This document shows, one piece after another, positions 4,705 to 19,796 of a stretch of DNA of 34,138 nt. Source of the DNA: Alphaproteobacteria bacterium (GTDB taxonomy: Bacteria > Pseudomonadota > Alphaproteobacteria > Rs-D84); NCBI GenBank assembly GCA_017616975.1, contig JAFZXC010000029.1:1-34138 (forward strand). Direction: 5' to 3'. Position 1 is the stretch's first letter. Every line of letters starts with the position of its first letter. The position numbers and the translations under genes were made by a program. A model generated the notes under the pieces. It was not told where the DNA came from. It did not search any database and was given only the letters and a program-made list of their open reading frames with translations.

Positions 4705-4710
4705 GGGTTT

Positions 4711-4900
4711 GTCATTGCGAGCATAGCGAAGCAATCCAGTCATTATAGATTGCCACGGTCACTGCGTTCCCTCGCAATGACAATGGTTGTTTTGTCATTG
4801 CGAGCATAGCGAAGCAATCCAGTCCATTTTGTCATTGCGAGCCTGCGAAGCAATCCAGTCATTATGGATTGCCACGGTCACTGCGTTCCCTCGCAATGAC
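4711..4900. repeat. Cluster of GTCATTGCGAG palindromic repeats, left of the DGR
   Basis: Full copies lie at 4711-4781 and 4831-4900, with a half copy at 4794-4824. Each full copy begins GTCATTGCGAGC, has GAAGCAATCCAGTC and ATTGCCACGGTCACTGCG inside, and ends CTCGCAATGAC, so the two ends are inverted repeats able to form a long stem. This belongs to the widespread non-coding palindromic family whose chance translations read like LRAQRSNP or HCERSEAIQS. Adjacent copies show recent local duplication. Confidence 0.9.
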
Positions 4901-4925
4901 AATGGGACTGCAATAACGAAAACAC

Positions 4926-5081: not shown

Positions 5082-5219
5082 ACTTCCTCGGTTGCGTCCT
5101 GGGTGTTCAACAACACGAACTCCTCGGCTTCCGATTGTGCGTCAAACTGTGCCAACAACTGCGGTAACAACGTCCGTAACAACGCCGACTTCCGGCTGGG
5201 CGTGTTTTCGGCTCTCGGC
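5082..5219 (+). repeat. DGR template repeat (TR)
   Basis: 138 bp that match the 3' end of the giant gene (7170-7307, minus) end to end without gaps. I count 16 mismatches; 15 fall on adenines of the TR (25 A in total) and one on a C. The TR carries ten AAC codons in the phase of the target, five of them changed to TAC-type tyrosine among the first seven and all ten changed overall. AAC codons mutated at A never give stop codons, which is characteristic of DGR templates. The last 30 bases contain no A and are identical in TR and VR, as expected for the initiation-of-homing region. The frame across it (5043-5366) is not a gene. Confidence 0.96.
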
Positions 5220-5423
5220 TCCTTTTGGTACAAAGTTTTGCCAACCTGTGGGACAGAGCGTATATCGCTTTTTATCCTTGGATGTATCACAAGGCGGGGC
5301 GACATAACCCGTTTGGGTGGCAACGCCCTTACGAACACAAAGCACAGGGGTCGTCTGGGCCAGTAGCATATGCCAACGTCCAGACGACAGAATAAACAAC
5401 AAAAAAGACACCAGGAGAACAAC
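5220..5423 (+). ncRNA. Structured spacer of the DGR template RNA, between TR and accessory gene
   Basis: 204 bases without a convincing gene. It holds two hairpins: a nested one at 5297-5328 (GGGCG/CGCCC enclosing ACCC-gttt-GGGT), and a perfect 9-bp stem GTCGTCTGG (5350-5358) with CCAGACGAC (5380-5388). In the Bordetella phage DGR the RNA just 3' of the TR folds and is needed for cDNA priming. The position and fold here suggest the same role; this is inference. Its 3' end contains the Shine-Dalgarno of the next gene. Confidence 0.5.
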
Positions 5424-5750
5424 ATGACACTTGATGAAATAAAAAACTTAACGATTGACACATGTCCACAATTTGCATCTTTTGCACGTGACAAATTACC
5501 GATGCCCGGCACGAAACGCCGTCTGGACGAGATATTAAACCACGAAATTCTGGTGACAGATTTTCGTATAACCAAGTCCAAGAAAAACACAGACGGTGAT
5601 TGTTTACAGTTGCAATTTGTTATGGACGATGCGGTATTTATTGTTTTTACGGGAAGTGCGGTCTTGATTGACCAAATTCAGTCTGCCGCTGAAAACATAC
5701 CTTTCCGCAGCACAATTGTGAAAATAGATAAATACTATTCGTTTTCATAG
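5424..5750 (+). CDS. DGR-cassette protein, possible accessory factor (108 aa), not Avd-like
   Basis: Located between TR and reverse transcriptase, where DGRs usually carry their accessory gene. The sequence, from MTLDEIKNLTIDTCPQF to IVKIDKYYSFS, has a short helical start, then alternating hydrophobic strands (EILVTDFRI, CLQLQFVM, AVFIVFTGSAVLIDQI) and an aromatic end. This looks like a small mainly-beta protein, perhaps an OB-like nucleic-acid-binding fold. It does not look like Avd, which is an all-helical bundle of about 125 aa. I recall similar short proteins in phages, but cannot name a family. The start was chosen at 5424 because AGGAGA precedes it by 6-7 bases; the longer frame from 5370 has no such site. 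No signal peptide. Role in template binding or cDNA handling is a hypothesis. Confidence 0.75.
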   Translation: MTLDEIKNLTIDTCPQFASFARDKLPMPGTKRRLDEILNHEILVTDFRITKSKKNTDGDCLQLQFVMDDAVFIVFTGSAVLIDQIQSAAENIPFRSTIVKIDKYYSFS

Positions 5751-5763
5751 TGGGTCAACCCTT

Positions 5764-5837
5764 GTCATTGCGAGGAAACGCAGTGACCGTGGCAATCTAT
5801 AATGTGGACTGGATTGCTTCGCTGCGCTCGCAATGAC
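5764..5837. repeat. GTCATTGCGAG palindromic repeat between accessory gene and RT
   Basis: One full copy, inverted relative to the left cluster: it starts GTCATTGCGAGGAAACGCAG and ends GCTTCGCTGCGCTCGCAATGAC. It occupies most of the 117-base gap between the two DGR genes, so the RT mRNA carries a large hairpin just upstream of its start. Confidence 0.9.
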
Positions 5838-5867
5838 AAAAGAAAGGCAAACACAAAAGAAACTATC

Positions 5868-6902
5868 ATGAAACGGCATAATCATTTATGGAAAGAATTT
5901 ATATCCCCAGAAAATCTGGAACTGGCTGCGAATAATGCTGTCAAAAGCAAGCGTGGCAAGACTCAAACACGTCATTTTCTTAAACACCGCAGCGAATACA
6001 TGCAAAAACTGCAAGATGATTTAGAACACAATCGTTTTCGCACATCACCATACAAAATTTTCACAATTTTTGAACCTAAAAAGCGTCAAATATATGAATT
6101 GCCACTTTATCCCGATCACATTGTTCACCATGCACTGATAAATGTTTTGGGCCCAATATGGATTCGTATGTTTATACGTGATTCATTTGCGTGTATTCCC
6201 GGCCGTGGTCTGCATTCAGCAAGTCAACGCACCATGCATTTCATGCGAAAACACAAATATGTTTTACAATGCGACATACGCAAATTTTACCCAAGCCTTG
6301 ATCACAACGTAATGATAGGCATATTAAAACACAAGATAAGCGACCGTCGCATTCTTGATTTGTTAATTGGTATTATTCGTTCTGGAGGCGACGGCAAAAA
6401 CATACCGATTGGCAATTTAACAAGTCAATGGTTGGGGAATGTATATCTTAACGAACTGGATTATTTTATAAAACAAAAATTACATTGGAAATCTTATCTT
6501 CGCTATTGTGACGATTTTTGTTTATTTGGCGACGATAAATTGGAACTTCATCGCATTCGTCAAACGATAGAACACTATCTTTTAACAGAATTGAAATTGA
6601 CATTTTCACGATGTGCGCTGCGACCGACACGTTGCGGTATAAATTTTATTGGCTATCGATTTTTCCCACATTTTATTTTGATGCGCCAGCGTTCAACGAA
6701 ACGATTATCACGTCGCATAATGAATATCGCACGCAATGACGATGTATCGATGCATTCAATGGGGCAACTGGCAGCGGCACATGGATGGCTTAAATGGGCG
6801 TGCAGTTATAATTTTCGGCGACATCTGTGGGCACGAATATGTCAAACGAAAACGACCCCATACGTGCGTAAGTTCATACGAAAACATTTGTTTAAAAGAT
6901 AG
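5868..6902 (+). CDS. DGR-type reverse transcriptase (344 aa)
   Basis: RNA-directed DNA polymerase that would copy the TR RNA into adenine-mutated cDNA. RT motifs in order: ELPLYPDHIVHHAL (motif 1/2 region), LQCDIRKFYPSLDH (motif A, catalytic Asp), IPIGNLTSQWLGNVYLNELD (motif B), YLRYCDDFCLFGDD (motif C, YxDD) and GINFIGYRFF (motif D/E). The GxxxSQ form of motif B is typical of DGR RTs, where retroviral and many group II RTs have QGxxxSP. The length of 344 aa, without maturase, endonuclease or protease domains, also fits DGR RTs. The start was set at 5868 (MKRHNHLWKEF); the longer frame begins inside the palindromic repeat. The Shine-Dalgarno is weak. It is followed by another repeat cluster and converges on the target gene. 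Confidence 0.95.
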   Translation: MKRHNHLWKEFISPENLELAANNAVKSKRGKTQTRHFLKHRSEYMQKLQDDLEHNRFRTSPYKIFTIFEPKKRQIYELPLYPDHIVHHALINVLGPIWIRMFIRDSFACIPGRGLHSASQRTMHFMRKHKYVLQCDIRKFYPSLDHNVMIGILKHKISDRRILDLLIGIIRSGGDGKNIPIGNLTSQWLGNVYLNELDYFIKQKLHWKSYLRYCDDFCLFGDDKLELHRIRQTIEHYLLTELKLTFSRCALRPTRCGINFIGYRFFPHFILMRQRSTKRLSRRIMNIARNDDVSMHSMGQLAAAHGWLKWACSYNFRRHLWARICQTKTTPYVRKFIRKHLFKR

Positions 6903-6905
6903 GGT

Positions 6906-7056
6906 GGATTGCTTCGCTGCGCTCGCAACGACAAAAGAACCATTGTCATTGCGAGGGAGTGTAACGACCGTGGCAATCCATAATAATGACTGGATTGCTT
7001 CGCTGCGCTCGCAATGACAAAGTGGGACTGGATTGCTTCGCTGCGCTCGCAATGAC
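6906..7056. repeat. Cluster of GTCATTGCGAG palindromic repeats, right of the RT
   Basis: A half copy at 6906-6932, a full copy at 6945-7018 and a half copy at 7030-7056. The orientation matches the copy at 5764. Together with the left cluster they bracket TR, accessory gene and RT. The 261 bases between the RT stop and the giant-gene stop hold only these repeats and the hairpin at 7084-7106. Confidence 0.9.
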
Positions 7057-7083
7057 AAAAAGAATTGCAATGACAAAACAAAT

Positions 7084-7106
7084 GTGGGGCGGGGTCGCCG
7101 CCCCAC
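7084..7106 (-). terminator. GC-rich hairpin downstream of the VR (terminator and/or DGR target hairpin)
   Basis: GTGGGGCGG (7084-7092) pairs perfectly with CCGCCCCAC (7098-7106) around a 5-base loop. It lies 63 bases beyond the VR in the sense of the target gene. Known DGRs have a short GC-rich hairpin or cruciform just downstream of the VR that promotes homing. The following bases on the minus strand (ATTTGTTTTG) are only a weak U-tract, so a terminator function is possible but not clean. Confidence 0.6.
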
Positions 7107-7163
7107 ACCCCACCCATTTACGTTTTACGTTATTGTTGGTTGGTGCGGACGTTTTCCGCTGTA

Positions 7164-10100
7164 TCAGTCGCCGAGAGCCGAAAACACGCCCAGCCGGAAG
7201 GCGGCGTAGGAACGGACGTAGTAACCGCAGTCGTCGGCACAGTACGACGCACAACCGGAAGCCGAAGAGTACGTGTAGCCGAACACCCAGGACGCAACCG
7301 AGGAAGTATCAATTCCGGCAACGCTTGTCAACTTGCACCAGCATTTTGTTCCGCCGGTATTTTCCTGGGCCACGCTGGATGCGGTTGCCCATGAACCGTT
7401 ATTGCTGTTGCATGCGGCGACACCATATGCCTTGCCCCAACTGAACGTTGTGTTCCACGTCATCTGTGATGCATTGTATGTGTATGTTGAACCGTTGGTG
7501 TTGATGTCAAAGCCCGCCGCATCCCATGGATAGCCACGATTCTTTTTCGCCATATCGTCATAGACATAGTATGTTGTATTGCCGTTTTTAACCTTTAACG
7601 CCTTGGTTGAATCTGCGGTTGTCATGTGTTCCGTCGTTGACATGTTACCATAATACGTTGTTTCGCCAATTTTCACATTGAACGCCGGGTCGGTCTTTTT
7701 CACACTGCGCAGGCGAACCGTCGTATCGTCGGTGTGCAATATACGGCCACAGTCGCCGGCTTCGTCTGCACCATAGCCGGAACCGGTTGTTGTTGTGCCC
7801 GCCGGGCATGCGGTGCGGGTTCCCGCATTGTTATAATACACATTTTGTTTCGCCGCCCAGTATCCCGTTCCAACATCGGTGCATGTTGTGTCGGTTTTGT
7901 TCGCCATGTATGAACCGCCCATGCATGAACGATAGCATGAATTGATGGATGTAATTGCCCAGTTACCCGATGGGTGCGTTGCCGGACATGTCTTGCATGA
8001 ACTTTGCCCGGTTTCATCCTGGTATTTACCGGCATAGCATGCGTCTTGTGATGTCTTGCCGCTGCCGGATACATAGTAACCCTTACTTGCGGCGGTGCAT
8101 TGTGTCATGCCCGCACTTGCCGCATAGTATCCCGGTGTGCACTGGCTGCATGCACTGGTTGAGCCATAGTTCACAGTGTGTGTCGCCCGCGCCGAACCCT
8201 TGGCACACGTGCCCCAGTTTGTGCTGTTTTGGCCCGCACTGCCGATATAGTGACCACCGGTCACGCTTATTACGCATTCGGTATCCGCCACTTTGCCCGC
8301 AGTCGTATCATAATCATATCCCGATGGACAGTTGTTTTGGACACCGTTCACACAATATGTCGCACCATCGCACTGTGATTGACCCGTGCATGCATCATTG
8401 CCCGTGCAACCCGTGGTGTAATAACCCGTGTCAACCGTCGAACATTCTGATGCGCCGGTATCACTGTATTGTGTGCGTCCGGTACAGTTGCTGCATGTGT
8501 ATTCGGTGCCATAGTATGCCTTGTGTTCCGCCTTGTACGTTCCAGCGGCGCACTGGGTCAATGTTGTGCCGGTTGTGCCACTGCGCACGTTTCCGCCAGA
8601 TACCGTCAAATAACAACTTGTGTTCACGCTGTTTGTGGCACCGTCGTTGGTATAGCCCGTGCCATATGTCGTGCATGCCGTGCGAGCACCGTTCTTGCAG
8701 AAATAGCCGGAGCCACAGTTTTGCAACGCACTGTTGCCATTCTTGTATTTACCGTCGTCCACAGATTTGCATGTTGTTGCGGTTGTGCCGTCTTGCCATT
8801 CGTTTGTGCCGGAACATGCCGTTGGTGCCGTTGCGCCCGCTGGACACTTATTACCCGCACCGCATTGTGAACAGGTCAGGGTGTTCGACGTGATGGACGA
8901 ACCATTGTTTGCGTGATAATAACCGTTTGTACATGTATGTGTATATTTACATGTGTTGCTTGATACTGCGTCTTGTGAACATGTTGCGTTTGTATCCGTG
9001 CCACAACCGCATGATGACCATACCGCATACAACGCCGTCACCGAAGATGCGCTGCCACCCAATGCAACCGACGTTCCGGAACCGTTCGCCGCCGTGTTCC
9101 AACCGGTCAATATCTTGCCACTGTTGCTGATTGCACAGGTACTGCTGTTCCAACTTGGTGCGTTGCATGTGCCGCCATAAGAACATGTCATACTGCCGCC
9201 GGCACAGGTGCCCGAACCGCCATTACTGCTGATTGTAATGGTTCTGTTCGATGCAGATGCACTGTATGTTGCGTTGCTGGCATTGTAATTAGTTGTTGCG
9301 CCACAGTTCGCAGTGATTGTTGCCGAACCGGCTTTCTTGTATGTGATGGTGACCGTTGTGCCACTGACCGATACGGTTGCAACCGACGTATCGCTGGACG
9401 AAGCCGTCACAGCACCGCTTTCCGAACAAGTCACCGTGAACGAACCCGATGTTGTTGGGTATGTGACACTGCCACTTGTTGCGCTTAATGTCGTCGTTCC
9501 GTTCTTTTTCGCCATTGTACAGCTGTATGTGCCGGTCTTTTCGTTATAGTTCGTCGCCCCAGAAATCTTATAGCATATTGTCTTTGGCGATTCGCTGACG
9601 CTTGTCATTTGCGGTTTCGTACTGCTGTATGTTCCACATGTGCCATTTGTTTGGGTTGCATATGTCACCGTTCCACCAACACCGGACGTCACCGTTCCGC
9701 AGTTCTGGGCCGAACCGTTATATGTCAACGCATTACCCGATATTGTCACCTGGCTATCTGGGATAGTTGCGTTGGACACCGTACAGTTAAAGCTGCCTGT
9801 CTGCGTCGCATAGTTTTCTGCGGTCACCTGATAGTATATGGTCTTGCTGTCTGCGACATTGGTTATCGTCGGTGCATTATCCAGGTTATATGTCCCGCTT
9901 GTTGTGCCGTATTTCACAGTGTATGTGCCCGGTCCCGACACAGTCACGTTGCCGTTACATGTCAATGCACTGCCGTCATAGGTCTTGCTGTTATCGCTCT
10001 TCGTCACCTTGATCATCGTGCAAAGATAACTGCCACTCGCTTCGTTATAGTTCGTCGCATTCACCTTATAGTATACCGTCTGGCTGCCCGCATTCGTCAT

Positions 10101-13100
10101 CGTTATACTGCTGCTGTATGTGCCGTTTTGAGTGGTAGAATAGGTCACTGTCGCTCCACTCGCCGGTGCCGTCACAGATACATTAGCACAGCTCTGCGCA
10201 CTGCCACTCCAGGTCAATTTCTTGGTTGCCGCACTGTGTGTTATCGTTGCATTGTTAACTGTACAATCATATGTTCCCGTTTCATCATTATAGTTCGGGT
10301 TCGTAATCTTGTAATACACCGTTGTTGTTCCGGCATTGGTGCGGCTTGGAATTGTAGATGTGTAGTTGTTGCTGCCATCGGTGTTATATGTCGTAGTTGA
10401 ACCACTTGGCACCCCAGTCCATATTCCACCATCGCAACTCAATGCACTACCATCATAGGTCTTGCTGTTGCCACTGGCACCCACACTCGTAGCGCCCGCA
10501 CCACCAGAGCCCATTGTTGCCTTGGTTATCGTGCATGAATAACTGCCGGTCTTGGTAGTAAAGTTATCCCCACTTATCTGATAGTACACTGTCTTGGTAT
10601 CGGCAACGTTCGTCACTTTCGGTACCGTTCCGCTGTATGTGTTGCTACCATCGGTATTATATTTGATAGTTGCGTCTGATGGTGCTGTTACACTTGTAAT
10701 ACCACAACTATGTGAACTGCCATCATATGTCCAACTCTTTGCGCCACAGCCAGCCACACTGTCCGCACAACTTACCGCTTTCGCGTTCATTGTACATGTG
10801 TAACTTGCCGCCGTGGTTGTAGTATAGTTCGTCTTAGACACTTTATACCATACCGTCGTACTGCCAACTGTCGTCAATGTCGGCGCTGTGCTGCTGTATG
10901 TTCCGTTCTGTGACGTACTATATGTCACACTTGCCCCACTTGGTGTGGTCACAGTAACATTTGCACAACTTTGTGCTGTTCCGTTACTCGTGCTCGTTCC
11001 ATTATACGTTAACGCCTTATCTGACGCACTTGCTGTTATGGTTGCTGGCGTTATTGTACAAGTATAGCTGCCCGTCTTGGTCGTATAGTTAGATGCAGTT
11101 ATCTGATAATATACGGTCTTTGTATCGGCAACATTTGTTACTGCTGGCACAGTCGCGGTGTATGTGTTGCTGCCATCCGTATTATACTTTATCGTTGCAC
11201 CATCTGGTGTGACACCACTTGTTATACCACAACTGTGTTCGCTGCCGTTATATGTCCAGCTGCGGTTCTTACATGCACTGGTGCTGGTGGTATCACATGT
11301 TATTGTTCCGGCGTTCACGGTCAATGTATATGTCGCATTGCTGGTGCTGTAATTATCATTTGGTGCCGTCGCCGTGACAGTCACGCTCTGGGTTCCGGTC
11401 TTCTTTGGCGTCATTGTGACGGTGCCACTGCTGATTGCGGCGGTTGCAACCACGTCGCCACTGGTTGGACTTACACTCAACGAACATGCAGCGTTTGTGG
11501 TCGCATAGAACGTCTTGGTTGACGGGAAATCCGTGCTACCGCTGGATGTTGCAGACCCGTTCGATGCCGTCTTTATTGTCACGCCGCACGCCAGTTTATC
11601 CATATAGCATGTATAACTGCCCGTCTTGATATTACTGTCGGACGTTGTCACCTTGTAATAGACCGTCGTTGAACCCGCATTTGTGATGGTGCGTGGTGTA
11701 TCACTGCCATATGTACTGCCATCAGTCCCATATTTGACGGTATTGCCAGACGCTGGTGTTGTGACAGTTATGCCCGGGCATGTTTGTGCCGAACCAGAAT
11801 AGGTCAAATGGTTGCTTGGTGTTGTCACAACAATCGCCGAACAGCTCGCATTATATTTGCCATTGTTAGAAATGTTATAGTACCCATTATTACAACTTGT
11901 TGTATATGTGCAGACGCCCAATGGTGCCGTCAATGTACAGGTCGCACCAGTATTGCCACTGCACGCCGTACAGTCGGTCCACACCGCATACAAGTTCACC
12001 GTGTCACCATTGGTCGTGGTCAGGTTACTTACACTTTGACCGTTCGTATAGGTCGCACTGGTTGCGGTGCTGCTTGTTGACCACCCAAGGAACTTCTTAG
12101 TGCCATTAGTGAACGCATTGCTCGTTAATGCCTTGGACACATCATATGTATGACTGCTGTTGGACATTGACCCGGTCGCACCAGTCGCATTCGCATTATA
12201 TTTAACAGAGTAGGTGTTCGCTGTACAACTTGCATTGTATTTACCACTGTTCGCAAGTGTATTATAACCCGTCTTACAACTTGTTGCATACGTACATACA
12301 TTGTTCACAACACTTAAATTACATGTTGCGCCGGTATTACCACTGCATGCTGTGCACTGACTCCATTGTGCATACAATGTTTGTGCACCAGTCTTGTTCC
12401 ATGTCTTTGCACTGCTGATGGTGGTGCCACTGACACTATAATATTTCGTTCCATTTGTGCGTGCATCAAAGTACCCAGTGAATGTATATCCATCGCGTGT
12501 CGGCACGGTCAGGTTTGCATTGCTTGTATCCTTGGTCGGCATAGCACTGTCGTATGTCGCCGTCACCGTTGCAACAGTCGTCGCATCGGAACCGCTGGTG
12601 TTCTTGTTCAACGTGACTGTCGATGTTTGGGCATTACATGCGGTATTGCCACTGTTCGCAGCATATCCAGTATTACATGTCCATTTGGCATAGAATGTCT
12701 TGTTGCCGGTTGTGGTTGCAGACACACTTTGCGTTGTGGAACATGTTGTCAGTCCGGAATCTGTGCACCAACCACCAAACGTACTGTGTGCACGTGTTGG
12801 GGTGCCGGCGGCAACCGTTGCGCCAACGCCATATGTATATGTTGCCGGCAATGTGCCAACGTCAGATCCCGCTGTTACCGTACCAGAACCTGATTTTGTC
12901 TTAAACTCACCCGTCACCGTATCATACAAACCGAGCACACCATCGCTCCGACGCGCTGGGACATAATTATGTGTAACATTTCCACTTTCTGTAATAATCA
13001 AACTGTACACTTTTGCTGACGCACCATATGATGTATTTCCACCATTGGTTGTATTTATATCAAACACATACAACGATTTGTTTGTCATAGTAGTAGAAGA

Positions 13101-16100
13101 ACCCAAGGCAATTGTTGTGCCATTAACAGACGCCTTTCCATCATTCATATAATTCAATGTCAGGGTATATGCCGTATTTGCCGCAGGGGTCATTGATACT
13201 ATGTTCCGTGCATAATCAGAAGTTGTTCCACCATGTGGAAACCATACGCCATTATTACTGGTACCACCGTACACATTGATAGAGAATGGATTCCCTCCTG
13301 CATATGCACTTGCACTTGTTGCACCTAACACGATGTTATCTGCATTTTTCACCGTAGTAAGCGCAACTTTCATACTTGCACCAGTGTTCAATGTTGGAAC
13401 AATTCCTGTATCAATATAAACATTTCCGTCGGACTGCAGATATTCAACCTGGGTATATGCCGCAGTTCCACCGTTAAGGTTGTTGGTGATTGTATATGTC
13501 CGTGGCAAGCACACGCATGTTGAACCCGTGCATGTCGCCGTTGACGTCGTGTCGGTTCCACCCGCCTTGCTGTATCCGGTTGCGCATGTTCCGCTGTATG
13601 TACATGTATTATTGCTTATTGTTGGTGAACAACTTGATACACCAGTTCCATTGGTGCAACTGTTACATGTCGCAACGGTGCAAAGGTTCGATACACTGTT
13701 TGCAGACCACGATGGTGTTGCCCATGTTGCAAGGTTTGTGATTGATGAACATGTCTCGCTGCATGCCGTGTTTGGTGTTGCGTTATAATTCGTGCCGGTG
13801 CCGGACGTCGTTCTGCCACCCGGACATGCGGTACATGTGCTGCTGGCACTTGATGCGGTGCTGTATGACCCCTTGGCGCACGCAGTTTGGCTTGTTGCGC
13901 CAGCCGCCGCATAGTATCCATTAGATGCTGCAGAACAAGATACAGACACACTGGTGTCACCCGCAGAACCCGTCTGGGTCGCCGAACAATAGTATCCTGC
14001 CTTGCTGCTGCGGTTACATACCGGGGCGTTGCCAGAAACACTGTTCAAACTTGTTGATGCAACACTTGTTGTATTTCCGTTACAGGTTGGTTCAACCCAC
14101 ACCGCATAATATGTTGTATTGCCCGTTGGACATGTTGATGGTGCGTTTGCAGTGGTTGCACTGTCTGTCGTTGCCCAGCCCTTGAACACACGTTTTGTCT
14201 TGTAAAGGCTTGTTGTGGATGTGGAATCTGTTGCACTCCATGTCGGCAAGGTCATGCTGGAATCTGTCGTGCAAGTAAATGTCACCGCACCAGATGTCAT
14301 AGCAGTATTCTTTATCTTGCCACCTGTCGCACCGTTGCCATTAAGCGTTATCGTGTTCGTGTTCGCGGTACAATTAATTGTCTTACCACTGGCGGTTGCG
14401 TTGCTGTACCCCGTTGAACATGTACCGGTATAATTACATGTATTGCCCGTTGTGTTATATGTACACGATGCCGCACCGGTTCCCTTTACACAGGTATTAC
14501 ATGTCGCAACGGTGCACAGATTGCTTACCGTGTTATTCGATGAATTCCATGTCTGTGTGTTCCATGTCGCAAGATTCGTAATCGAAGAACATGATGTAGA
14601 GCAGGTTGTATCTGCATTTGTATTGAACGCAGTGCCGGTTCCCGACGTTGTCTTACCCGCCGGGCATGCCGTACAGGTTGCAGAACCCGCAGAACTGTAT
14701 GAACCAGTCGCACACTTGGTTTGCGTGGTTGCCCCCGCCGGTGAATAGTAACCGGCGGTTGTGGATGTGCAAACCTTGGTCTTCATACAATCAACACCAT
14801 TACACTGAGCATATCCACTGCCGTCACTAACCCACTGACTTGTTGATTGAATTGTATTGTAAGTACCAGCAGCACACGATGTTGGTTGACGTGTCTGGCA
14901 ATAGCTGTTTGCACCACCATAACCGCCATCACTCACGCTATACATACACCATATAATATACTTTGTGTCACTGTCAGTTTCAGAATCATTGAAATTAGCT
15001 GCGCAGCCACCAATAGCATTATGTATATTGTTCGACCACCAACCACCATAGCTCACAAAACGTCCGGACATTGCACTTTGAACCTCTGGACAGACAGAAC
15101 AACTGCCTGCATCAGCATAGGAATACGTCTGGCGACCGGTTGTAGAATCACTTGTGCACTTGCCACATGACGCACTGGTCGCACTGTCGCTTGTGCCACT
15201 TGGAGTTGCCGTCTTACCACCGCCGGCACAGAAATAACCCGCCGTGATATTGCCCGTCACACCCTGGGCAGTATTGGCATTGTATGTGTATGCCGTGCCA
15301 CCAGAACAGTATTTACCCGCCGGACATGCGCTGCACGCCAATGCACCCGCCGCCACGTGATAACCCGCATCACATGTCATTGTCCATTGTGCATATAATG
15401 TCTGGGCACCGGTCTTGTTCCAGTTCTTGGCACTGGCTAGCGCACTGGTGTAATACTGGGTACCACCCGTGCGTGCATCATAATAGCCATTAAATGCGTA
15501 TGTTGTGTTATTCGCCTTGTTGCGTGTTGGCGCCGTTAGGGTATTATTGCTGGTATCCTTGGTCGGCATCGCAGAATCATATGTCGCCGTCACCGTCGCA
15601 ACAGTCGTTGTATCAGAACTGCTGGTGTTCTTGTTCAATGTCACCGTTGATGTCTGCGCCGTCCATTTTGCAAAAAGGGTTGTGCCACCAACAACATTAC
15701 TAAACAACGAATTTTGGGTTTCACCATTCGCATTGATGTATTGCGTGCCCGAAGCGCCGGTCTTGTTCGTATAATAACCACCAAATGTATAGCCAGTCAG
15801 GGTAGGTTTAGTGATAACCCAACCTTGCGATTGAACCGACTGATTTAAACACTTTGATGAATCGTTCGCAATCGTACTGTTTGTGACTTCGGTGTTATAG
15901 TACCAACAAGCCTGACCAGTTGATGGTTGTTGTTTGTACACATACCAGTATTCTACTGTTCCGTTGCTGGTTGCCGCACTGCCGGTTGTATCGCCTGTTG
16001 ATGTATAGCGTTTTGGATCCAACGTCACCTTGTACGTGCGTGGCGAACAAGACGATGTCACCGTCGAAACACCCGCAGAACCCGTCGCATTGAACGATGT

Positions 16101-19100
16101 TGTTGTGTTAGTGTATCCGCTTTGGCTATATCCACTGGTACATGTCACCGCACATGTCGGGGTGTTCGAACTGACACTGGATGTTCCAGAACCATTTGAT
16201 ATGCTGCAGGTCACACTTTCCCATTTCGCATACAGCGTTTCGCTCTTGCTTGGGGTATATGTCCCACCAGCAGAACAACGTTTCGTAGTATAGTTCGTGT
16301 CTGTATACCAGCCAACCAATACCTTTTGACTCGTCCCACTCCCGTTCGTAGCTGTCGCACATGTCACCGTCCCACTCGCATTCGATTCAAACTGCGCATA
16401 CCATGTCTGGTTGCTGGTGTATCCTTTACCAGCACTTAAACCGTCACTTGTTATATATCCATTCGCATTAATGTATTGCGTCGTTCCACTTGCACTGTTG
16501 TAATACCCCTTGAAGTTTACACTCTTGCTTGCTGACGATGCACTAAGGTTAGAACCGCCGTTCACATTAAATGTGACTGTATAACTCTTGCTCGGTTTCG
16601 TCACCGCATTTGCAGATGTACCCATCGCATTCGCACGAGCACTGTCTTTATACACATTGGTATTATATGTCGTGTATATAGTTCCAGACCCCCCAGAACC
16701 ACCATTCGTGCTGTCGTTCAATGTAATCGAATATCCATTCGGTGTCCCGGTCGGGTTATATGTTCCACTGCCTGCCGTTAATGTGTATCCATCCTTTGCA
16801 CTCGTAGTATATGTACATGTACCATCACTGTTTACCGCTAATGAACAGTTCATGCCAGTCCCAGCAGAACAATCTTTACACCACGCCGCATGCATAGTCG
16901 CATTTGCTGTAAACGTCGTGTTCGATGGTAAGTTATTACTATCCGTTGGTATCCGTATGTTCGCATTGTCAGAACCACCAGTCGCAGTCAAATCATCGAG
17001 TTGTGCGAAGTAGAACCCACGGAACGTATAACCACTTCTTGTCGGCAGATTTATCCCAGATAACTCCTGTGTCGCACTACTGTCGCCGTACCATCCCGTC
17101 GCATACTTTTCATAGATAGTCCCATCCGCACCGCCGTTATGGGCACTTAACGTTATCGCAAATGTGTCTGGAACACAGCTTGTTCCACTGGCTTTATATC
17201 CTGTATTACAGCTGAACTTTGCATACCATGTCTGGTTGCTAGTGTATCCTTTACCTGCTGTTAAACCAGCACTTGTGATATAGCCATTCGCATTAATGTA
17301 TTGCGTCGATCCACTTGCACTGTCATAGTACCCAAGGAATGTTGCGTTCCCCTTCGTCGGTTTCGTTACTGGTTTCACTATGGTAGTCATACTCTCTGAA
17401 CGAGCACTGTCTCTATATACACCAGTATTATATGTCGTGTATATAGTCGATGACCCACCAGATCCACCATTCGTGCTGTCGTTCAATGTGATGCTCTGTT
17501 GATTGTTCGTGCATGTACCAGCGATGTCTGTCCCAGATTGTGTATAACCAGTGCTACAATTATAATGTGCATATATCGTTGATGCACCAGTCACCTTCCA
17601 ACTCGTGCTCAACACACTTGGACTTGCACTGCTACCAACATTCGTGGTCGTGTTATCTGCCGCTGTATAATACCCAGTAAATGCCGCATTACTCTTGCTT
17701 GGTGCTGCAGTCGTCGTCACTTCCGTAGCACACGTCACATCGTCCGTCTTAGAACTGTACCACTTTGTGTCATTAGTATATTTATACAACGTTGTGTTTG
17801 ACGTACTGCCACCACGTGTCGTGTTGTTCACAGTAACCGCATTACATTTTGCAGTACAAGCATAACTGACGGATGTTTCATAATAGTCACTACATATTTC
17901 ATCCCCACCACCACTGTACCCAGTGTTACACGTGATATCTGCACAAACTCGATTGCCTTCCGAATATACTGAATATGCTGAACCGTTGGTTACTGATGCC
18001 GATGGTGCAGTCCATGCAGCATAACGGTCTATACTGTTATCAAAGTTCATTTCTGATGCCGGTATTTCCCATACAGGCCCAATATTCGAACACCCACTGG
18101 AAGAGCAGTGCGTAAACGGAAGCCAACCCATCATTACTTTGTTAGAATAATTAGTACCGGAATCACCACAACCAAGATTCGCATAGTCATATGTCTGACT
18201 GGTTGGTGGATATGGACGTGGCAGGTAACAAGTCTGCCCGTTCGTACATTCTGTATAGCCATAATCACCACTGCTGTTTATGTTCCGTGCACCACTGTAA
18301 TATGACGAAATAACACCAGTGTCCCCACTTGTGCATTGCACGTTGTTCGGACGCAAATAGACAGTAACTTTTCCAGGTTGACATGACGAACCACTGGGGT
18401 CGCTCGTACTGTATTCATAACCACTGCCATGATTGTCTGTGTTAGCACCATTAATTCTGTATCCGGCTTTACATGTGCAATATGCAGACCCAGTGCTGGT
18501 CGCCTGGGCATTCGTTGAACAAGAACCACCACTATATGTTGCACCACAGTCCGCAGCCGTTCCAACCGCACCAGTCGCACTGGTCCCGCAACCCGTATTA
18601 TAGTATCCCGCATTTATCGATGAACAACTTGATGCCCCCGCAGAACTATACTTACCAGCCGGACAGGGTGCACATTCGTTTGCTCGTACGGTTCCGTCCG
18701 TAGGATGATATGTCCCAGCCGGACATTGTTCCCATACCGCAGTCAAGGTTTCTGGTGATGTAAATGTCGCACTGCCACCAAGCGCAATCGTCGTACCGCT
18801 GCGTGACCAACCGACCAGTTTATATCCACCCTTACCATAAGTTTTTGATCTACCATTATCCAATGAACAAGAAGAATTATAATTACAATAGTCATAGCCA
18901 CCCGAACCAAAAGTACCACTGCCCAAACTATATGTCAAAATTGGCGATGGTTTCTTTTTACCGGTACAATGATATCCTGACGGGCACGAACAGCATTTAT
19001 TACCCGCCTGGGGCGTGTTATTATAATATCCAATGCCACAGGTCTGGCCACTGACCATATAATATCCAGACTTACAACTGGTATACGTAGTAGTGTTGCT

Positions 19101-19253
19101 GGCACTACAATTATCGTACTGGTACGTACAATATGAACAAGTAGTAGCAAAGGAATTTGTTGGAGAAAATGCGCCAAATAACAGCACAACGCCAAAAAGC
19201 GCACACGTCGCACGACAAGCAGCCAACCTTAGTTTTTCAAAGAAATCAGCCAT
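7164..19253 (-). CDS. Giant secreted modular protein, DGR target (4029 aa)
   Basis: An uninterrupted 12-kb gene. A signal peptide (hydrophobic ALFGVVLLFGAF, cleavage likely after NSFA near residue 37) sends it through Sec. Modules by residue: Cys-rich GYY/CPAG units (about 38-300, repeated near 1370-1900 and 3340-3800); InlB B-repeat-like units ending YAQW, YAKF or YAVW (about 460-1350, 2130-2480); a LamG/concanavalin-like domain (about 1925-2130, IDTGI to GLYDTVTGEF); eight tandem MBG-like repeats (about 2480-3250); one Big-like Ig domain (about 3254-3340). The last ~200 residues contain CWCKLTSVAG and then the VR. Rich in Thr, Ser, Gly, Asn and Cys, so disulfide-bonded and extracytoplasmic. 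The C-terminal variable fold may be C-type-lectin-like as in other DGR targets, but I could not confirm that. GGAG precedes the ATG at a long spacing. No membrane anchor or sorting motif is visible at the C-terminus. Confidence 0.93.
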   Translation of the reverse strand: MADFFEKLRLAACRATCALFGVVLLFGAFSPTNSFATTCSYCTYQYDNCSASNTTTYTSCKSGYYMVSGQTCGIGYYNNTPQAGNKCCSCPSGYHCTGKKKPSPILTYSLGSGTFGSGGYDYCNYNSSCSLDNGRSKTYGKGGYKLVGWSRSGTTIALGGSATFTSPETLTAVWEQCPAGTYHPTDGTVRANECAPCPAGKYSSAGASSCSSINAGYYNTGCGTSATGAVGTAADCGATYSGGSCSTNAQATSTGSAYCTCKAGYRINGANTDNHGSGYEYSTSDPSGSSCQPGKVTVYLRPNNVQCTSGDTGVISSYYSGARNINSSGDYGYTECTNGQTCYLPRPYPPTSQTYDYANLGCGDSGTNYSNKVMMGWLPFTHCSSSGCSNIGPVWEIPASEMNFDNSIDRYAAWTAPSASVTNGSAYSVYSEGNRVCADITCNTGYSGGGDEICSDYYETSVSYACTAKCNAVTVNNTTRGGSTSNTTLYKYTNDTKWYSSKTDDVTCATEVTTTAAPSKSNAAFTGYYTAADNTTTNVGSSASPSVLSTSWKVTGASTIYAHYNCSTGYTQSGTDIAGTCTNNQQSITLNDSTNGGSGGSSTIYTTYNTGVYRDSARSESMTTIVKPVTKPTKGNATFLGYYDSASGSTQYINANGYITSAGLTAGKGYTSNQTWYAKFSCNTGYKASGTSCVPDTFAITLSAHNGGADGTIYEKYATGWYGDSSATQELSGINLPTRSGYTFRGFYFAQLDDLTATGGSDNANIRIPTDSNNLPSNTTFTANATMHAAWCKDCSAGTGMNCSLAVNSDGTCTYTTSAKDGYTLTAGSGTYNPTGTPNGYSITLNDSTNGGSGGSGTIYTTYNTNVYKDSARANAMGTSANAVTKPSKSYTVTFNVNGGSNLSASSASKSVNFKGYYNSASGTTQYINANGYITSDGLSAGKGYTSNQTWYAQFESNASGTVTCATATNGSGTSQKVLVGWYTDTNYTTKRCSAGGTYTPSKSETLYAKWESVTCSISNGSGTSSVSSNTPTCAVTCTSGYSQSGYTNTTTSFNATGSAGVSTVTSSCSPRTYKVTLDPKRYTSTGDTTGSAATSNGTVEYWYVYKQQPSTGQACWYYNTEVTNSTIANDSSKCLNQSVQSQGWVITKPTLTGYTFGGYYTNKTGASGTQYINANGETQNSLFSNVVGGTTLFAKWTAQTSTVTLNKNTSSSDTTTVATVTATYDSAMPTKDTSNNTLTAPTRNKANNTTYAFNGYYDARTGGTQYYTSALASAKNWNKTGAQTLYAQWTMTCDAGYHVAAGALACSACPAGKYCSGGTAYTYNANTAQGVTGNITAGYFCAGGGKTATPSGTSDSATSASCGKCTSDSTTGRQTYSYADAGSCSVCPEVQSAMSGRFVSYGGWWSNNIHNAIGGCAANFNDSETDSDTKYIIWCMYSVSDGGYGGANSYCQTRQPTSCAAGTYNTIQSTSQWVSDGSGYAQCNGVDCMKTKVCTSTTAGYYSPAGATTQTKCATGSYSSAGSATCTACPAGKTTSGTGTAFNTNADTTCSTSCSSITNLATWNTQTWNSSNNTVSNLCTVATCNTCVKGTGAASCTYNTTGNTCNYTGTCSTGYSNATASGKTINCTANTNTITLNGNGATGGKIKNTAMTSGAVTFTCTTDSSMTLPTWSATDSTSTTSLYKTKRVFKGWATTDSATTANAPSTCPTGNTTYYAVWVEPTCNGNTTSVASTSLNSVSGNAPVCNRSSKAGYYCSATQTGSAGDTSVSVSCSAASNGYYAAAGATSQTACAKGSYSTASSASSTCTACPGGRTTSGTGTNYNATPNTACSETCSSITNLATWATPSWSANSVSNLCTVATCNSCTNGTGVSSCSPTISNNTCTYSGTCATGYSKAGGTDTTSTATCTGSTCVCLPRTYTITNNLNGGTAAYTQVEYLQSDGNVYIDTGIVPTLNTGASMKVALTTVKNADNIVLGATSASAYAGGNPFSINVYGGTSNNGVWFPHGGTTSDYARNIVSMTPAANTAYTLTLNYMNDGKASVNGTTIALGSSTTMTNKSLYVFDINTTNGGNTSYGASAKVYSLIITESGNVTHNYVPARRSDGVLGLYDTVTGEFKTKSGSGTVTAGSDVGTLPATYTYGVGATVAAGTPTRAHSTFGGWCTDSGLTTCSTTQSVSATTTGNKTFYAKWTCNTGYAANSGNTACNAQTSTVTLNKNTSGSDATTVATVTATYDSAMPTKDTSNANLTVPTRDGYTFTGYFDARTNGTKYYSVSGTTISSAKTWNKTGAQTLYAQWSQCTACSGNTGATCNLSVVNNVCTYATSCKTGYNTLANSGKYNASCTANTYSVKYNANATGATGSMSNSSHTYDVSKALTSNAFTNGTKKFLGWSTSSTATSATYTNGQSVSNLTTTNGDTVNLYAVWTDCTACSGNTGATCTLTAPLGVCTYTTSCNNGYYNISNNGKYNASCSAIVVTTPSNHLTYSGSAQTCPGITVTTPASGNTVKYGTDGSTYGSDTPRTITNAGSTTVYYKVTTSDSNIKTGSYTCYMDKLACGVTIKTASNGSATSSGSTDFPSTKTFYATTNAACSLSVSPTSGDVVATAAISSGTVTMTPKKTGTQSVTVTATAPNDNYSTSNATYTLTVNAGTITCDTTSTSACKNRSWTYNGSEHSCGITSGVTPDGATIKYNTDGSNTYTATVPAVTNVADTKTVYYQITASNYTTKTGSYTCTITPATITASASDKALTYNGTSTSNGTAQSCANVTVTTPSGASVTYSTSQNGTYSSTAPTLTTVGSTTVWYKVSKTNYTTTTAASYTCTMNAKAVSCADSVAGCGAKSWTYDGSSHSCGITSVTAPSDATIKYNTDGSNTYSGTVPKVTNVADTKTVYYQISGDNFTTKTGSYSCTITKATMGSGGAGATSVGASGNSKTYDGSALSCDGGIWTGVPSGSTTTYNTDGSNNYTSTIPSRTNAGTTTVYYKITNPNYNDETGTYDCTVNNATITHSAATKKLTWSGSAQSCANVSVTAPASGATVTYSTTQNGTYSSSITMTNAGSQTVYYKVNATNYNEASGSYLCTMIKVTKSDNSKTYDGSALTCNGNVTVSGPGTYTVKYGTTSGTYNLDNAPTITNVADSKTIYYQVTAENYATQTGSFNCTVSNATIPDSQVTISGNALTYNGSAQNCGTVTSGVGGTVTYATQTNGTCGTYSSTKPQMTSVSESPKTICYKISGATNYNEKTGTYSCTMAKKNGTTTLSATSGSVTYPTTSGSFTVTCSESGAVTASSSDTSVATVSVSGTTVTITYKKAGSATITANCGATTNYNASNATYSASASNRTITISSNGGSGTCAGGSMTCSYGGTCNAPSWNSSTCAISNSGKILTGWNTAANGSGTSVALGGSASSVTALYAVWSSCGCGTDTNATCSQDAVSSNTCKYTHTCTNGYYHANNGSSITSNTLTCSQCGAGNKCPAGATAPTACSGTNEWQDGTTATTCKSVDDGKYKNGNSALQNCGSGYFCKNGARTACTTYGTGYTNDGATNSVNTSCYLTVSGGNVRSGTTGTTLTQCAAGTYKAEHKAYYGTEYTCSNCTGRTQYSDTGASECSTVDTGYYTTGCTGNDACTGQSQCDGATYCVNGVQNNCPSGYDYDTTAGKVADTECVISVTGGHYIGSAGQNSTNWGTCAKGSARATHTVNYGSTSACSQCTPGYYAASAGMTQCTAASKGYYVSGSGKTSQDACYAGKYQDETGQSSCKTCPATHPSGNWAITSINSCYRSCMGGSYMANKTDTTCTDVGTGYWAAKQNVYYNNAGTRTACPAGTTTTGSGYGADEAGDCGRILHTDDTTVRLRSVKKTDPAFNVKIGETTYYGNMSTTEHMTTADSTKALKVKNGNTTYYVYDDMAKKNRGYPWDAAGFDINTNGSTYTYNASQMTWNTTFSWGKAYGVAACNSNNGSWATASSVAQENTGGTKCWCKLTSVAGIDTSSVASWVFGYTYSSASGCASYCADDCGYYVRSYAAFRLGVFSALGD
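7170..7307 (-). repeat. DGR variable repeat (VR) at the 3' end of the giant gene
   Basis: 138 bp in the final 47 codons, ending 3 bases before the TGA. Codons that read AAC in the TR read here GGC, TAC, TAC, TAC, GAC, GAC, TAC, TAC, TCC and TAC; further A changes are GAT to GGT, TCA to TCG and GAC to GCC. The single non-A difference is TCC to TCT. The Cys codons TGT, TGT and TGC are shared and contain no A, so the cysteine framework cannot be hit. The VR is inverted relative to the TR and about 2 kb away. Confidence 0.96.
9515..11830 (-). repeat. Eight tandem MBG-like repeats inside the giant gene
   Basis: Units of about 75-110 residues share the pattern LTYNGSAQSC...TVTY...NGTYSS...TNAGSTTVYYKV...NYxxxTGSYTCTM. 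Each has a conserved Cys pair. The first unit is separated from the others by a short divergent segment. Identity varies between units, so they are old duplications rather than recent slippage. Confidence 0.75.
16396..16498 (-). repeat. Near-identical 103-bp duplication in the giant gene (copy 1)
   Basis: Matches 17221-17323 with about 9 differences over 103 bases and no gaps. It encodes the InlB-like segment around INANGYIT and GKGYTSNQTWYA. The neighbouring segments also match: 16661-16720 resembles 17420-17490, so a larger unit was duplicated. Confidence 0.8.
17221..17323 (-). repeat. Near-identical 103-bp duplication in the giant gene (copy 2)
   Basis: Partner of 16396-16498. A second, more diverged pair in the same gene is 12361-12620 with 15390-15660 (segments STVTLNKNTS and YDSAMPTKDTS in both). 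Confidence 0.8.
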
Positions 19254-19431: not shown

Positions 19432-19760
19432 ATGTCAGATGCACAGGACATAGCCGCCATATAAAATGGAGGAGGAAAGTCCGGACTGCGTGGGACAGCA
19501 CACTGGTTAACGACCAGGCGGGGCGACCCGACGATTAGAGGAACAGTAACGTAAGCGATTAAATTCGTTTGAAACGGCCAATCTCTGTGTGCAGCAACTT
19601 CAAATAGGCTTCCGATAAACCGTCCCAGTTTGGAAGCGGGTAGAGGGCTTGATGCCCAGTGGTAACATTGGGTACAGATTAATTATGTCCGCCACCCCAT
19701 TGTTGTTGGAAACAACTGCGGTGGGGCAGCACAGAATCCGGCTTATCGTGTATCTGGTAA
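19432..19760 (+). ncRNA. rnpB: RNase P RNA (bacterial type)
   Basis: Ribozyme component that matures tRNA 5' ends. The conserved core is visible: GGAGGAAAGTCCGGACT near 19471, AGAGGAACAGTAACG near 19537, and ACAGAATCCGGCTTAT near 19731, the 3' half of the P4/J region. P1 forms between CAGATGCAC (19436-19444) and GTGTATCTG (19748-19756), with one G-U pair, which sets both ends. Its length of about 330 nt is normal. A promoter precedes it and a terminator follows. Apparent reading frames across this region are shadows. Confidence 0.96.
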
Positions 19761-19796
19761 AAAAATCGCACCGTAATGGTGCGACTTTTTTTATTT
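19761..19796. terminator. Bidirectional terminator shared by rnpB and the DUF2817 gene
   Basis: An A-run, TCGCACC (19766-19772), loop gtaat, GGTGCGA (19778-19784) and a T-run. It ends rnpB on the plus strand. Read on the minus strand it gives the same hairpin with a U-tract directly after the stop of the convergent gene. Confidence 0.9.

Follow-up and report, generated by a model that had tools for sequence, protein, structure and literature searches.

The window analysed here, a 34,138-nucleotide stretch of an alphaproteobacterial contig, contains a repeat pair (TR and VR), a gene encoding a 344-aa reverse transcriptase (RT), a gene encoding a 108-aa protein, and a gene encoding a 4029-aa protein that ends in the VR. 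The features of this cassette and its borders were as follows.

4708-4905, minus strand: dispersed palindromic repeats at the cassette border upstream of the TR
5082-5219, plus strand: TR, 138 bp, with 10 AAC codons
5189-5219, plus strand: candidate IMH*, the A-free 3' end of the TR, identical to the 3' end of the VR
5220-5423, plus strand: conserved structured RNA spacer 3' of the TR
5334-5365, plus strand: spacer core motif AAYAC...YHRGTA, present in most congener and viral spacers of diversity-generating retroelements (DGRs)
5424-5750, plus strand: 108-aa DGR-linked accessory gene, present instead of avd; fold predicted as OB-like
5757-5844, plus strand: dispersed repeat copy between the accessory gene and the RT gene
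5868-6902, plus strand: DGR reverse transcriptase, 344 aa, with IGNLTSQ (motif 4) and YCDD (motif 5)
6905-7063, plus strand: dispersed repeat copies between the RT gene and the target gene
7145-7159, minus strand: weak hairpin immediately after the VR and stop codon, GCGGA-AAACG-TCCGC, 5-bp stem
7164-19253, minus strand: target gene, 4029-aa protein with the VR at its extreme C-terminus, a signal-peptide-like N-terminus and one Pfam Flg_new repeat
7170-7200, minus strand: candidate IMH segment, the 3' end of the VR
7170-7307, minus strand: VR, 46 codons, followed in the target gene only by an Asp codon and the stop

Template and variable repeats

Alignment of the TR with the reverse complement of 7170-7307 gave 138 ungapped columns, as an earlier sequence-only reading had claimed, and identity ended at both borders of this alignment. 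The hand count in that reading was also reproduced: 15 of the 16 mismatches were located at TR adenines, which corresponds to changes at 15 of 25 adenines and at 1 of 113 other bases (Fisher exact p = 1.1e-12). The sole difference at another base was a C to T change at TR position 42. Codon comparison showed that all ten AAC codons were changed in the VR, again as claimed; overall, the VR differed from the TR by 12 amino-acid changes and contained no stops. The VR ends 3 nt ahead of the stop codon of the 7164-19253 open reading frame, and the TR is located outside that gene. The 3' terminal 31 bases were identical in the TR and VR and free of adenine; judged by its sequence, this segment is where an IMH would be expected. 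No further copies of the TR or VR were found in the 725-kb assembly (41 contigs, approximately 80% complete).

Reverse transcriptase

The presence of a DGR-type RT near the TR was borne out, the ATG of the gene at 5868 being 648 bp from the TR end (650 in the sequence-only reading). The best PDB match was the DGR RT (bRT) of BPP-1 (8ub7, E = 8.6e-44), far ahead of group II RTs, and the protein also matched PHROG 1423 (E = 8.8e-94). Retron, DRT and group II identities were rejected, as the corresponding profile matches were weaker or under the cut-off. The gene was the single RVT_1 match in the whole assembly. RT matches were found in 28 of the 99 relatives searched, and about a quarter of the sampled congeners had the same DGR cassette. 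In a tree constructed from DGR RTs only, the RT was placed among these sequences, and 18 congener RTs, including that of the window, formed one clade with 100/100 support.

An accessory gene instead of avd

Avd is often called an essential DGR component. The sequence-only reading had described the element as complete; this description stands for the TR, the VR, the RT, the target and a cassette that is shared with congeners, but not for avd, which was absent and was replaced by an unrelated conserved gene located between the TR and the RT gene. No PF05635 (Avd) match was found in the genome that carries the window, BLASTP gave no alignment between BPP-1 Avd and the 108-aa protein, and tblastn with the BPP-1 Avd query gave no match in the loci searched. 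An Avd hidden in the locus was rejected, since both the genome search and the tblastn search were empty. The 108-aa protein is not a member of the Avd family. Searches of Pfam, NCBIfam and PADLOC assigned it to no family; 19 of 32 members of the accessory family matched PHROG 19665, whose function is unknown.

Of the 22 RT loci in the genus and order, 20 had the accessory gene; one of the other two was at a contig edge, and the second involved a distant RT. The gene also abutted the RT gene in one genome of another alphaproteobacterial family. Viral contigs, phage records and genus genomes were searched with the accessory family as the only query, so that the RT played no part in the selection of matches. 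All 38 viral loci (about nine of which were duplicates or near-duplicates) were DGR cassettes: an RT was no more than about 1.5 kb away in 37, and the remaining one had an A-specific TR/VR pair. Among 50,697 phage records, only ANMV-1 virus and vir525 gave a match, which in both directly adjoined a DGR RT. The family was present in 37 of 141 genus genomes, and 20 further genus regions comprised 17 with an adjoining RT (of which L116 repeats the genome of L045), one with a TR/VR pair and the RT elsewhere, one with an RT fragment and one (G027) with nothing.

Two of these regions were unusual. L098 (G027:C3 21000-32000) had an intact accessory gene (71% identity); its genome, which is 96% complete, had no DGR RT, and this copy is an orphan or a relict. 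In L108 (G500:C11) the accessory gene and an A-specific TR/VR pair were present without a local RT, the sole RT being located at G500:C19:137780-138799, a possible in-trans DGR.

The AlphaFold2 (AF2) model of the 108-aa protein (pLDDT 88, pTM 0.70) consisted of three strands, a helix and two strands; it was chiefly beta and had no helical bundle of the kind found in Avd. The closest chain was RuvB-like 2 domain II (Z 7.4; 2.9 A over 69 residues), a match below the aligner's trust level. Weaker matches were obtained to bacterial and mitochondrial SSBs (Z 6.0-6.3) and to PriB (Z 5.7), and most of the top rows were OB proteins. Since none of these Z values reaches that level, the predicted OB-like fold is likely rather than settled.

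Linkage, fusion and predicted fold suggest that the 108-aa protein probably has an Avd-like chaperone role. The alternative that survives best is that the locus is a plain DGR of the known kind in which the 108-aa gene is only a passenger whose product does something else, such as controlling transcription, and the partner of the RT is unseen or is supplied by the host. The retention of the gene in G027 without any RT is consistent with a passenger, as is its variable position, since across loci it was found before the RT, after the RT or inverted. In the RT tree, the loci labelled with the accessory gene were clustered but did not form one clade. A passenger would not, however, be expected to show near-exclusive DGR linkage in blind searches of both bacteria and archaeal viruses, nor to be under strong sequence constraint, nor to be fused to the RT, as it was in three viral loci (L081-L083), where the RT and the accessory domain formed an in-frame fusion within a 520-aa ORF. 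We therefore consider the passenger explanation unlikely. The fusion ORF had the catalytic motif LADD instead of YxDD.

The DGR itself is of a kind that is already known; an accessory family unrelated to Avd is the new part. Literature searches, which did not reach Wu et al. 2018, found no description of this family. In the portion of PMC10053308 that cites Wu et al. 2018, the accessory proteins listed are HRDC, MSL and one without Pfam or CDD attribution, and the family found here may have been named already in that earlier study.

Spacer RNA

The 204-nt spacer was conserved in sequence and had a closing helix with some covariation; it matched no Rfam entry. RNAalifold analysis of a MAFFT alignment of the spacers yielded 13 pairs only, a count that is low because loop lengths vary. 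The core (AAYAC, about 25 nt, YHRGTA) was present in 15 of 16 genus spacers and 23 of 25 viral spacers, compared to shuffled means of 1.5 and 1.4, respectively, although this excess is somewhat flattered because the pattern was derived from the same sequences. The idea that the motif marks out DGRs with the accessory gene was rejected, as parts of it were present in crAss-type and BPP-1 spacers; it is a property of a wider range of DGR RNAs.

Target gene, hairpin and dispersed repeats

The 4029-aa target protein has a start that resembles a signal peptide, as judged by eye, and Flg_new was its single Pfam match. Its gene lies on the strand opposite to that of the RT. Such a giant opposite-strand target was found only in the window and in L023, which represent two sister species; most congener targets were about 140-500 aa. 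In L023 the accessory gene was likewise inverted and was placed between the RT and the VR. In L030, two VRs (5891-6021 and 7268-7400) were located inside one 677-aa ORF, with one TR for both. A bacterial class A RNase P RNA was identified at 19435-19761 of the window.

The genus targets have a common Cys-rich C-terminal domain that gave no Pfam, NCBIfam or PDB sequence match. Variable positions recurred with a period of about 90-95 degrees around an invariant C-x3-C-x3-C and were located on a helix in the AF2 model of the target end. This model was weak (pLDDT 57 overall; three sequences used) and gave no fold match; because of this weakness a C-type lectin variant is still conceivable. Roux et al. 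(PMC8144416) reported that annotated VR regions were consistently linked to C-Lec folds.

A hairpin 3' of the VR was found at 11 of the 18 VRs of the set, compared to a shuffled mean of 0.54. Many congeners have stems of 8-12 bp after the VR, whereas the window has only a 5-bp stem there. The palindromic repeat (GTCATTGCGAGC...GCTCGCAATGAC) had 35 matches in the assembly and, within the window, was restricted to the DGR cassette and its borders. These repeats are recent companions and do not belong to the DGR proper; they could have been the agents of the inversion of the target relative to the RT.

These features bear on a second alternative, namely that the locus is a relict, in which the VR was diversified formerly and the cassette is now dead in the window strain. 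The insertion of repeats between the accessory gene, the RT and the target, the inverted target (elsewhere seen only in L023) and the weak hairpin 3' of the VR would all be compatible with decay. They have to be set against the open reading frames of the RT, the accessory gene and the 4029-aa target, and against the identity of the VR and TR at 112 of 113 non-A sites, which suggests fairly recent homing. A dead cassette is, in our judgement, improbable, and slightly more so than a passenger gene.

Adenine-specific variation across the genus

Eighteen TR/VR pairs from 17 genomes, including that of the window, were pooled. Template adenines were changed at 256 of 451 positions and other bases at 14 of 1910 (p = 4e-196), and the substitution spectrum comprised 100 A>G, 106 A>T and 50 A>C changes. 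In 16 of the 18 pairs, 385 of 389 template adenines were in codon position 1 or 2; because the TR adenines are almost confined to these positions, about a dozen residues can change without the introduction of stops.

The sequence-only reading had proposed that metagenome or population reads with VR variants concentrated at template adenines, and an invariant TR, would support the DGR. The closest substitute for that test was a comparison across species rather than strains, with the outcome that had been foreseen: the VRs varied at template adenines, and the TRs and the non-A positions of the VRs held. Loci L025 and L112 have identical TRs, and their VRs differed at 19 of 31 A sites and 1 of 117 non-A sites. 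Similarly, the VRs of the window and L023 differed at 16 of 22 A sites and 1 of 98 other sites. At the 12 non-A sites that separate the TRs of these two loci, each VR had the base of its own TR (24/24), which on these alignments is as TR-to-VR homing would predict.

A bias that arose from deamination of adenine in RNA or DNA, or from ordinary selection acting on a gene end that had been duplicated, would agree with changes that fall at A and are nearly all nonsynonymous, but is negligible as an explanation, since adenosine deamination is excluded by predicting A>G changes only, selection alone would neither spare 1896 of 1910 non-A sites nor maintain a TR outside the target gene, and an RT of the DGR type is linked to the repeats.

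The locus is thus very probably a chromosomal DGR. A prophage origin was rejected, as the other genes of the window look like ordinary chromosomal ones when their translations are read (SecA, RuvB, ArgRS, ribosomal proteins L13/S9) and the RNase P RNA is located in the window. A scan of viral contigs with the window RT detected no relative.

Comparison with known systems

The BPP-1 element (mtd / TR / brt / avd) encodes a homologous RT (8ub7; 32% identity over 92%) and, like the window, has an A-specific VR at the 3' end of the target gene and a spacer after the TR, which in BPP-1 occupies 144 nt before the RT. In contrast to the window, which has an unrelated gene after the TR, BPP-1 has the four-helix-bundle protein Avd encoded before the TR. 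The BPP-1 target is a tail fibre, whereas the window target is a chromosomally encoded giant secreted protein on the strand opposite to the RT.

In the ANMV-1 archaeal virus and Caudoviricetes sp. vir525, an accessory homologue (44% and 40% identity, respectively) adjoins the RT, and the DGRs have the same spacer motif as the window. Unlike the window, these elements are viral, have the order VR-TR-RT-accessory and have phage-type targets. An Avd ORF is labelled in ANMV-1 in PMC4372165, and this label may or may not refer to the accessory homologue, which is annotated only as hypothetical.

Further close systems were alphaproteobacterial DGRs from the rumen and gut (L023 and L043, roe-deer rumen; L044, buffalo rumen; L045), which have an RT of the same clade as that of the window (100/100), the accessory gene and the spacer. 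L023 and L045 also have the VR domain of the window; the target of L044 is off its contig.

Proposed mechanism and significance

On the preferred reading, that of a DGR served by a protein other than Avd, the TR and the structured downstream spacer would be transcribed as one RNA. The 344-aa RT would copy the TR to cDNA with near-random bases opposite template adenines, a step visible here as the A-to-N pattern, and the same pattern suggests that the cDNA would replace the VR at the 3' end of the gene for the 4029-aa secreted protein. This replacement would be anchored by the identical A-free 3' segment. The 108-aa protein would take the job of Avd, assisting the RT as a nucleic-acid chaperone with an OB fold, and may bind the TR-spacer RNA or the nascent cDNA. 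Points that weigh against this reading are the G027 gene without an RT, the separation of the accessory gene and the RT on different contigs in G500, the repeat copy between the two genes in the window, the weak hairpin and the low Z values of the OB matches. The product would be a population of cells with differing tips on a giant adhesin-like protein.

More tentatively, and with rather less than even confidence, the data may define a large DGR branch, shared by alphaproteobacteria with small genomes and by viruses, archaeal ones among them, that uses an OB-fold, SSB-like substitute for Avd, sometimes fused to the RT, and that in bacteria displays its variable residues on one face of a Cys-rich amphipathic helix and not on a C-type lectin.

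If the reading is correct, a DGR-specific family unrelated to Avd occurs in bacteria and archaeal viruses, outside the curated libraries that were searched, and the RT can work with a partner of a different structure, most probably a protein that binds single-stranded nucleic acid. Such a partner would provide a comparison for the duties of accessory factors (RNA binding, priming and cDNA handling), and the family could be used as a marker gene for DGR discovery.

The host

The close relatives of the host are rumen MAGs, and most genomes of the genus measure 0.7-1.1 Mb; the host is a small-genome alphaproteobacterium. Alphaproteobacteria of the order Rs-D84, to which this host may belong, have been described from farm-animal guts as partner-dependent organisms with reduced genomes (PMC12306168), and this host probably depends on a partner as well. 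In a genome of less than about 1.1 Mb, 12 kb is devoted to one hypervariable surface protein, and a giant hypervariable secreted protein would fit attachment to partner cells.
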